From contig NZ_JAQWTM010000084.1 of NCBI RefSeq assembly GCF_029242675.1, positions 1 to 52,593 on the forward strand: a DNA stretch of 52,593 nt. The letters run 5' to 3'. The DNA is from Flavobacterium sp. (GTDB lineage: Bacteria > Bacteroidota > Bacteroidia > Flavobacteriales > Flavobacteriaceae). Each line of letters starts with the position of its first letter. Positions within the stretch are counted from its first letter, which is position 1. Of this stretch, positions 1 to 40,641 are shown one piece after another. The position numbers and the translations under genes were made by a program. The notes beneath the pieces were generated by a model. The model did not search any database and was not told where the DNA came from. It saw nothing but the letters and a program-made list of their open reading frames with translations.

Positions 1-2459
1 ATAGTGAAGTTTTGTGCATCGGGGTTGTTTAAGTAATTTCCTCTCCATGCAAAATCAAGACGAAGTACTTTAAAAATATTACCAACTCCAGCACTGTACT
101 CCCAGTACGCTCGCTCAGGAGCAACATAGGTCAAGCCCGAAGCATTAATGGCTCTATTAGCATCTGAGATCGTTCCATAAACCGATCGAACACCAATCAT
201 CTCCCTCCAATTCAGTTTTCTCATAAACGGAATTCTACCAAATATGCGTCCGCCAAAGTTATGTTCCCATTGCAAAGTCGCAAATTGATCAGAAACAAAT
301 TCGTAAAAATTCAAGTTGCTAAAGGTGTTTTCAATAGTAAAATACGTTTGATTTCCGGGAATAACACTCATAAGTCCTAGTGGTATTGTACCAAAGGTTT
401 TACCTACTTCGACGATTACATTCGAACGACCTAACGGACCGATAACAATAGGTTGTTTATAATACAACTGAATCTTTTCGTATTGAAAATCACTATTTAG
501 CAACCCTTTAAAACCTTGGCTGTAATTAACATAAAAGCGACTAAAAGGGCTGTCCACATTCCCTCGCTCTACACCATAACCACTTGTTTTGCGGTTGGGT
601 GTAAATTCTACTTGAAAATTAATTTCAGCTTGCTTTACCTCACTTTTTGTAATTGTCTGTGCCGCATCTGTATAATAATCTAAACTAAAAGTTGTTGAAG
701 CCGACTGCAATGTGCGATACGAAAATCCCGTTTGAAACGTCAAATTTTTAACCGGCTCAATCTCTATTCCTACATTGGTCAAATTAATACTAGTTAATTT
801 ACCATTACTACCTGATGAGAACAATGATGAGGACGCGAAACTCCTACCAAGTACATCATTCGTACTCGTTAAACTAGCACCTATTTGCTCTATATCTCTC
901 CTATTTCCAGCAGACAATATGATTCGCTTTTCCTTATCGACCATCCACTTTCCTGAAAGCCCGTATTTAAACTTATTATCATCAAAGCCATAAGCAGTGT
1001 AACCTTGAATACGCCATGGATCATTTCGTCCAAAGTAGGTTCTTCCGCCTACACGCAAACGAATTCCTTCTACTTGGTTGTAACCAAAAGTGGAAAAAAT
1101 AGGACCAAAATCGAACTTATCGATAGGAACATACCCACTTCCTAAAATGGTAACCGTACTGTAGATTTGCTTGAACTTCTTCACGGATTGCAAGGTGTCT
1201 AACATTTGGTACACACCTTTTTCATCTTTATTCAGGTTTTCGAAACGGTTTTCATCCCAAAATTCATCACTTTTATTATAGACTTCGTTGTCTACAAAGT
1301 TGACCTCATCTTTATAAAAAGCAGCTGGTTTCTCTATATTAAACTGATGATTTTGATACAAGGTAGTTCGTTTGCCATACATCCCTTTCGACTCCTCCTT
1401 TTTGTTAAAAGCAAAATCGGACATCATATAATCTCTCGTTAACAAGAAAACAGAATCGTTTTGAACTTCAAACTCCTGCTCAATATAAATATCTTTTACC
1501 CAGTTAATATTAGCACTTTTGGTAACGGCCATGTTAATTTTCTTGATGGCAAATGTGCTGTCGTTTACCCAAAAATCCCCTTTAAAAGTAAGTTCGTTTT
1601 TGCGTCGAGGATAAAATAAGATATTGTAACACCACTTTTTATCGATATAAGCACTGTCTCGAAGTACATAGTTGTAGACATCGATTCCAGTTTTAGACAA
1701 CGGACTGGTAAAACTCTTATCAAAAAAAGTAAGGTGGTTGTTGTAAATATCATAGTCTGAATACAAGTCTTTTACAAAAGATAAAATTTGCTGGTTGTTA
1801 CTAAAACCCGAGTTTTTGTTTGCCTTTAATTTCTCCTTTACCTTTTTAATCTTGTTATCACCGTACACATCAAGCAACGATTCATTGATGAAAATAGGTA
1901 AATAGGTTTTTCCAGTTACATCTGAAGTATCAATATGTTGAAAAACAAATTCCATCCCTTTAAATAGCTTGCTTTTCATAAAAGCACTATCAATGGTATT
2001 CATATCAAACTCTACCTTCTCGTACTTTTCCATTTGGTATTGATCGAATTGAGACAAACCATTCTTGCGTTTGCGTTCCCAAATTTTTCTCAAAATTTCA
2101 AGTGCAGGATTATCCTTTTTAGAAGTTTTTCCAGTAAAAATTACCACCTCTTTCAAACTTTCAGCCTCGTTTAAAAGGACTCTAAAATCATAATTTACCA
2201 GTTTGGTCAAAACAAGTTCTTTATCTGAAAAACCTACTGAGGTCACAATTATGGCTTGGTAATTATTTTTCGATTCCAAATAAAAGCGCCCGTCTTCATT
2301 AGACATAACACCTTCATTGGAACCCTTAAAAACCACATTGGCATACGGAACTGGTTGGTTCAATTTATCAATGATGATTCCGCTTACTTTTGTTTGTGCA
2401 AACAAAGAGGTAAAAGAAAAACTCATTAATAAAAGAAAATATAAAAGCGTCTTATTCAT
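1..2459 (-). CDS. DUF5686 / carboxypeptidase-regulatory-like domain outer membrane protein (partial, runs off the left edge)
   Basis: Reverse-strand reading from ATG at 2459 (MNKTLLYFLLLMSFSFTSLFAQTKVSGIIIDKLNQPVPYANVVFKGSNEGVMSNEDGRFYL...) has a signal peptide, a CarboxypepD_reg-like domain and then a long beta-barrel-like region, open to position 1. Absent from the ORF track because no stop lies within the window. Confidence 0.85.
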   Translation of the reverse strand, partial: MNKTLLYFLLLMSFSFTSLFAQTKVSGIIIDKLNQPVPYANVVFKGSNEGVMSNEDGRFYLESKNNYQAIIVTSVGFSDKELVLTKLVNYDFRVLLNEAESLKEVVIFTGKTSKKDNPALEILRKIWERKRKNGLSQFDQYQMEKYEKVEFDMNTIDSAFMKSKLFKGMEFVFQHIDTSDVTGKTYLPIFINESLLDVYGDNKIKKVKEKLKANKNSGFSNNQQILSFVKDLYSDYDIYNNHLTFFDKSFTSPLSKTGIDVYNYVLRDSAYIDKKWCYNILFYPRRKNELTFKGDFWVNDSTFAIKKINMAVTKSANINWVKDIYIEQEFEVQNDSVFLLTRDYMMSDFAFNKKEESKGMYGKRTTLYQNHQFNIEKPAAFYKDEVNFVDNEVYNKSDEFWDENRFENLNKDEKGVYQMLDTLQSVKKFKQIYSTVTILGSGYVPIDKFDFGPIFSTFGYNQVEGIRLRVGGRTYFGRNDPWRIQGYTAYGFDDNKFKYGLSGKWMVDKEKRIILSAGNRRDIEQIGASLTSTNDVLGRSFASSSLFSSGSNGKLTSINLTNVGIEIEPVKNLTFQTGFSYRTLQSASTTFSLDYYTDAAQTITKSEVKQAEINFQVEFTPNRKTSGYGVERGNVDSPFSRFYVNYSQGFKGLLNSDFQYEKIQLYYKQPIVIGPLGRSNVIVEVGKTFGTIPLGLMSVIPGNQTYFTIENTFSNLNFYEFVSDQFATLQWEHNFGGRIFGRIPFMRKLNWREMIGVRSVYGTISDANRAINASGLTYVAPERAYWEYSAGVGNIFKVLRLDFAWRGNYLNNPDAQNFT

Positions 2460-3511: not shown

Positions 3512-3593
3512 ATATATTATGTAAGTCAAGTTTTCGAAAAGCAAAAATAAATATTTAAAACCATTTACAAGCATAATTTTATCTAAAATTACT

Positions 3594-3672
3594 AGGAGCT
3601 TTTTCCGGCTATTCACTTTATCTTCTTGAGCCTAAAGAAGGCTCAAGAAGGATGCCGTTCCTATCCGGGCTA
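3594..3672. repeat. Intergenic structured repeat, copy 1 (conserved frame with variable hairpin)
   Basis: AGGAGCT-TTTT-CCGGCTATTCACT-TT-ATCTT-[CTTGAGCC TAAAGAA GGCTCAAG]-AAGGATGCCGTTCCTATCCGGGCTA; shares its frame with 40517-40609. Confidence 0.75.
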
Positions 3673-3779
3673 CGAAATCGTAATAGTTTAACAAAAAAAT
3701 ATTATGCACGCATAGTATATTATTCGATTTATTATTTTAAATTTGTAAAACAAAAGAATGACAATTAAATATATACATC

Positions 3780-40516: not shown

Positions 40517-40609
40517 AGGAGCTAATCCCGCTATCCGCTCCAATCTTTTAAGACCCTGTTGTTTTACAACAACAAGGTCTTAAAAGGATTTCCACTACTA
40601 TCGGGGCTA
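40517..40609. repeat. Intergenic structured repeat, copy 2 (conserved frame with variable hairpin)
   Basis: AGGAGCT-AAT-CCCGCTATCCGCT-CCA-ATCTT-[TTAAGACCCTGTTGTTTTACAACAACAAGGTCTTAA]-AAGGATTTCCACTACTATCGGGGCTA. Confidence 0.75.
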
Positions 40610-40641
40610 AAAAAACTGCTTCAAAACCAAATTAAGCGATA

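Follow-up and report, generated by a model that had tools for sequence, protein, structure and literature searches.

What is the small structured element that lies between the divergent pdhB and etfB genes of this Flavobacterium sp., and is it an RNA or a DNA repeat? The window, that is, the whole stretch of 52,593 nucleotides analysed here, was described in a first-pass annotation as carrying one conserved frame twice, at 3594-3672 and 40517-40609, the two copies having unrelated hairpins in the interval from ATCTT to AAGGAT. Both observations are borne out by the sequence, and Pfam confirms the pdhB/etfB intergenic setting. A search of Rfam 15 places both copies in RF01705 (Flavo-1), each as a full-length match (model positions 1-76, minus strand) scoring 72.8 bits (E = 3.6e-14) for copy 1 and 74.6 bits (E = 1.2e-14) for copy 2, where the gathering cut-off is 42 bits. 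Full-length matches at these E-values put the frame in the window far beyond chance. Both sequences are members of a family that is already known; because the Rfam entry exists, the supposed novelty of the element falls, while its reading as a structured dispersed element stands. The parts of the two copies are as follows, with x, N and RY denoting variable positions of the consensus given below.

3595..3672, minus strand: Flavo-1 copy 1, TAGCC...GCTCC, type A ends (RF01705 match 3598-3675 minus, 72.8 bits)
3651..3666, minus strand: left frame of copy 1, GGATAGGAACGGCATC, with x=G, N=A, RY=AC (frame scan, pair tables)
3623..3650, minus strand: variable hairpin of copy 1, core CTTGAGCC/GGCTCAAG, bulged C at 3650
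3607..3622, minus strand: right frame of copy 1, GATAAAGTGAATAGCC, with RY=GT, N'=T, x'=C (frame scan)
40518..40609, minus strand: Flavo-1 copy 2, TAGCC...GCTCC, type A ends (RF01705 match 40520-40612 minus, 74.6 bits)
40587..40603, minus strand: left frame of copy 2, CGATAGTAGTGGAAATC, with x=C, N=A, RY=GT (frame scan)
40546..40586, minus strand: variable hairpin of copy 2, AAGACCTTGTTGTT.../...AACAACAGGGTCTT, unrelated to the hairpin of copy 1
40529..40545, minus strand: right frame of copy 2, GATTGGAGCGGATAGCG, with RY=GC, N'=T, x'=G (frame scan)

Read on the minus strand, copy 1 runs from TAGCCCGGATAGGAACGGCATCC through its hairpin to GATAAAGTGAATAGCCGGAAAAAGCTCC and copy 2 from TAGCCCCGATAGTAGTGGAAATCC through its own to GATTGGAGCGGATAGCGGGATTAGCTCC. 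In copy 1 the outer variable pair reads G-C and in copy 2 C-G, the flip that had been noted earlier. Our frame scanner finds these two matches in the window and no others, and 0.73 Mb of shuffled sequence yields no match at all. Copy 2 is located between the HMG-CoA reductase gene (PF00368, Pfam) and a same-strand 306-aa ORF, which has no Pfam match and is taken for a GHMP-type kinase.

The count of two copies holds for the window only, as the genome it comes from contains at least 113, a floor because 150 of 861 candidates were scored. These copies are scattered, and for most of them the flanking sequence is unshared. Across the genus the number ranges from none in genomes G018 and G020 and a few in G024, G033, G032 and G002 to more than 65 elsewhere, and an exact pattern also matches Chryseobacterium, Epilithonimonas, Kaistella, Halpernia, Polaribacter, Flavivirga and others, in keeping with the earlier remark that similar sequences occur in flavobacterial intergenic regions. 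Flavo-1 is listed among the most abundant bacterial sRNA families, without known function (PMC9029176), and genomes across Flavobacteriia have it annotated as an RNA gene. Phage, plasmid and viral collections yield no real match, only two weak Cronobacter phage hits.

Over the 113 copies the consensus reads x G A T N G n A R Y G G(C or AA) ATC, a bulged C, the hairpin, and then GAT(AnA or TGnA) R Y G n A N' A G C x'. All four Watson-Crick types occur at x-x' and N-N', the inner RY/RY pairs are seen as GC/GC, GT/AC and AC/GT, and the A.G and G.A mismatches between the variable pairs are nearly invariant. In a set of 337 distinct cores drawn from many species, 95.5-96.7% of the four variable pairs are Watson-Crick versus shuffled-partner means of 30-63%, figures to be read with a scanner that is itself mildly biased to Watson-Crick at x and N, and with copies related by descent, so that neither pair nor hairpin counts are independent. 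The frame comes in coupled variants, GGCATCC accompanying GATAnA and GGAAATCC accompanying GATTGnA. Of the 113 copies, 76 have type A ends (TAGC.../...GCTCC), including 14 in which an extra arm precedes GCTCC, and about 23 have other ends, for example GCGTGA/TCACGCC plus a second hairpin. Some Flavo-1 elements carry an extra module of ~45 nt (ACTTCAC...GTTCAGTGAACTTCGTTTG) in one or both arms (L295, G417 174286; L320, G256 261478; the G355/G265 45184 site). Other dispersed palindromes occupy hairpin tips, such as GTCATACTGAGCTTGTCGAAGTA in the genome of the window (e.g. G000:C375:19720, 22695) and CCTGAACTTGTTTCAGGATCC... in G355.

Since a G-U pair on one strand is an A-C mismatch on the other, we used the ratio of the two to tell which strand folds. 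On the Flavo-1 strand the frame holds 34 G-U versus 3 A-C, the 301 distinct hairpins, related by descent like the frames, hold 85 versus 14, and a manual count of intermediates at the pdhB/etfB site across species gives nine versus 0; G-U is rare overall, at about 2-3% of pairs. The excess therefore indicates that the fold is kept on the Flavo-1 strand, as RNA or single-stranded DNA, which in the window is the minus strand and not the forward strand on which the element was first presented. A structured non-coding RNA, transcribed and acting as an sRNA or UTR element, would likewise covary and tolerate G-U pairs on one strand, which counts against the DNA element that we prefer. RNA energy parameters predict the whole fold on this strand in both copies, whereas DNA parameters predict mainly the hairpin, a difference that speaks for RNA and against DNA; in these predictions folding alone does not decide between the two. 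Rfam assigns Flavo-1 the type sRNA, Weinberg et al. 2010 (PMC2864571) consider it probably an RNA, found in Bacteroidetes and without a cis-regulatory role, and some 5' transcribed regions of F. psychrophilum coincide with Flavo-1 matches (PMC9723704). We nonetheless regard an RNA as unlikely on account of the genomic setting of the copies.

Each of the two genes flanking copy 1 has a likely -7 box (consensus TAnnTTTG).

3542..3549, minus strand: likely pdhB -7 box, TATTTTTG (TAnnTTTG), found by eye, between copy 1 and pdhB
3738..3745, plus strand: likely etfB -7 box, TAAATTTG, found by eye, on the far side of copy 1

The pdhB box, which reads CAAAAATA on the plus strand, is kept in most orthologous intergenic regions, and the etfB box is present in most of them, with a few deviating by one base. 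As copy 1 sits between these boxes, it is upstream of both likely promoters and outside both likely mRNAs. Close upstream of etfB lies a palindrome at 3703-3714 (TATGCACGCATA), which almost every orthologous region preserves as TATGCRYGCATA; it is probably a regulator site.

In the wider set, Flavo-1 copies are intergenic, in either orientation, and often directly behind a stop codon. A replication-strand bias was set aside, both orientations being present within 400-kb stretches. Between co-directional genes of the genome of the window, 45 are antisense versus 25 sense; pooled genomes give 80 versus 42, with orthologous sites counted repeatedly. No promoter motif is conserved upstream of the copies, and more than 100 of them lie beside unrelated genes. 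An element biased to the antisense orientation is a poor fit for an RNA belonging to the neighbouring transcripts. The lack of a conserved promoter, rare T-tracts, the 2:1 antisense bias and the position of copy 1 upstream of both likely promoters favour a DNA-level element. Likewise, matches in the F. psychrophilum transcriptome overlap transcripts "indistinctly" in the sense or the antisense direction, and many overlap no transcript (PMC9723704). An ordinary intrinsic terminator working in both directions, or a hairpin at mRNA 3' ends, would account for a strong hairpin so often close after a stop codon. This explanation is hardly credible, however, as just 12 copies out of 113 show a run of five T within 25 nt of the end when the Flavo-1 strand is read, and 8 when the opposite strand is read, the conserved mismatch frame is superfluous for a terminator, and copy 1 lies between divergent genes. 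With at least 113 copies and rare T-tracts, the original judgement of a small dispersed element rather than a terminator holds.

How the element changes in place is visible at orthologous sites, where its neighbours are housekeeping genes. At the pdhB/etfB site it occupies the same place in the same orientation in about 20 of 30 sampled species, the remainder having relics, other sequence or nothing. Here x-x' is G-C in most species and T-A in G036 and G085, and the hairpin varies by paired substitutions (CCTGTGGC/GCCACAGG, CTTGAGCC/GGCTCAAG, others). At the HMG-CoA reductase/kinase site the element is present in several species, and in others the two genes are separated by a short gap. Comparison of two pairs of genomes at ~95% identity shows that the majority of Flavo-1 sites are common to both members. 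Over 400 kb of the G355/G265 pair, the centre has been replaced or extended by an unrelated palindrome at about 5 of 12 sites, with flanks and outer frame unchanged (e.g. C310079/D315933); B290029 is a further example, and at C80793/D80453 x-x' has gone from A-T to G-C on both sides at once. These comparisons suggest that the central hairpin is replaceable while the frame stays, so that the compensatory maintenance and interchangeable hairpin proposed from two copies can be seen between close species. A clean recent insertion was sought in 330-400 kb of each of the two close pairs and none was seen; at the best candidate, G265 290978, the partner holds a different palindrome. New insertions are therefore rarer than tip replacement, and mobility has to be inferred from the older empty sites.

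Two further observations concern Flavo-1 edges. G243 (L228) matches the window at 97% identity across etfB with its promoter, and at 76% across the HMG-CoA reductase/kinase stretch, and we rejected it as a close strain; in its etfB region the upstream gene has been replaced at the Flavo-1 edge, which suggests gene transfer or rearrangement there. Between conserved flanks, L294-L295 (G417:C1, about 144.0-154.5k) and L313-L314 (G256:C5, about 132.3-144.8k) differ by a hypervariable cassette-like region of mainly unrelated same-strand ORFs, some IS-like, one GNAT-like and one beta-lactamase-like, set between ~250-bp repeats that consist of a type-B Flavo-1 and ~140 bp with promoter-like TATATTTG.

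That about 20 species have long maintained the element at the pdhB/etfB site, with compensatory changes, could reflect a host function and to that extent argues against a purely selfish repeat. A DNA site used by the host, as REP/BIME are used by gyrase, Pol I or IHF, and retained because it helps to organise the chromosome or relieves supercoiling between genes, would fit this maintenance, the intergenic positions, often right after stop codons, and a site beside the same nuoH/nuoI-like genes that Flavobacterium genomes have in common with Kaistella chaponensis, of another family (L045, L339, L359, L432). Congeners with none (G018, G020) or almost none, the many relics and empty sites, and the rapid replacement of tips make such a role improbable.

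No protein partner was found among the candidates, none of which tracks Flavo-1 copy number, and this weighs against a DNA repeat. Movement of a REP-like repeat by a resident RAYT or IS200-type Y1 transposase would match a palindromic, intergenic, high-copy element without target-site duplication (over 76 copies, no offset or length stood clearly above shuffled pairs). The rich genomes G004, G029 and G030, with at least 64 copies each, have no Y1 match, G018 has one Y1 match and no Flavo-1, and Flavo-1 is near 1 of 15 scanned Y1/RAYT loci. This lack of tracking speaks against a resident enzyme and leaves the Y1/RAYT explanation very unlikely; a past enzyme, since lost, is possible. Among Flavo-1 neighbour genes no transposase recurs. 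Reverse transcriptase, as for a SINE-like RNA, was rejected on 0 RVT_1 matches in the genome of the window despite its at least 113 copies, and integron integrase because none of 60 relatives has a match that exceeds the TIGR02249 cut-off. Strong sub-threshold tyrosine recombinases occur in Flavo-1-rich and -poor genomes alike and do not track copy number; one class matches both TIGR02249 halves (E about 1e-30 each, below the integron cut-off) in G000:C313, G000:C213 and 20-odd relatives.

Known systems resemble Flavo-1 in part. Like REP/REPIN elements with RAYT, it is short, palindromic, intergenic, present in more than 100 copies per genome, patchy between species and without target-site duplication; unlike them, it is longer, has a conserved mismatch frame and an arbitrary tip, and has no RAYT link in the tested genomes. 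DDE MITEs are also short, non-autonomous and dispersed, but Flavo-1 lacks their target-site duplication and perfect terminal inverted repeats and conserves a single-strand fold. Of the alternatives first offered, REP/MITE-like or RNA with a swappable stem, a REP/MITE-like DNA element thus fits better, but neither REP/RAYT nor DDE MITE as tested. Integron attC sites fold on one strand, and in them conserved mismatches together with a bulged base surround a terminal hairpin that varies. Flavo-1 likewise folds on one strand and sets a variable tip on a constant frame, a similarity of form and nothing more, and it bounds a cassette-like region in two species; unlike attC, with its RYYYAAC/GTTRRRY core where the stem starts, it lacks the R-box consensus, has GTTRRRY at its edges in 3 of 113 copies, and comes without an integron integrase above cut-off in 60 genomes. 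With the Rfam family the window copies agree in strand, fold and membership, and differ in that the evidence here favours a DNA-level element over the sRNA type.

On balance we lean towards reading Flavo-1 as a DNA repeat, dispersed through the genome and recognised in its folded single-stranded form, and not as an sRNA. It would be a non-autonomous repeat of about 80-130 bp, recognised as one folded strand (the Rfam strand) that forms a stem with conserved G.A mismatches, a bulged C and an arbitrary hairpin on top. Paired changes maintain the frame and the tip gives way to other palindromes, the probable route being recombination between copies or a template switch from one to another; the acting form would be single-stranded DNA, and its recogniser a recombinase, transposase or DNA-binding protein. 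More tentatively, Flavo-1 may be the folded single-strand substrate of a novel flavobacterial recombinase or transposase, the mismatch frame serving as handle and the tip as a free slot exchanged between copies, with recombination at the edges shuffling neighbouring genes as in G417/G256. The family itself is known; new here are the folding of one strand, a kept frame with a replaced tip, and the orientation bias. Species pairs that differ in their tips, together with copy-free congeners, make the idea of a DNA repeat directly testable. If it is right, hundreds of "sRNA genes" per genome would be misannotated across Flavobacteriia, and Flavo-1 would represent a repeat of a new type, folded from one strand and with a tip that can be replaced; if the recombinase or transposase proposal is also true, one of the most abundant "sRNA" families in Rfam would be a family of mobile DNA.
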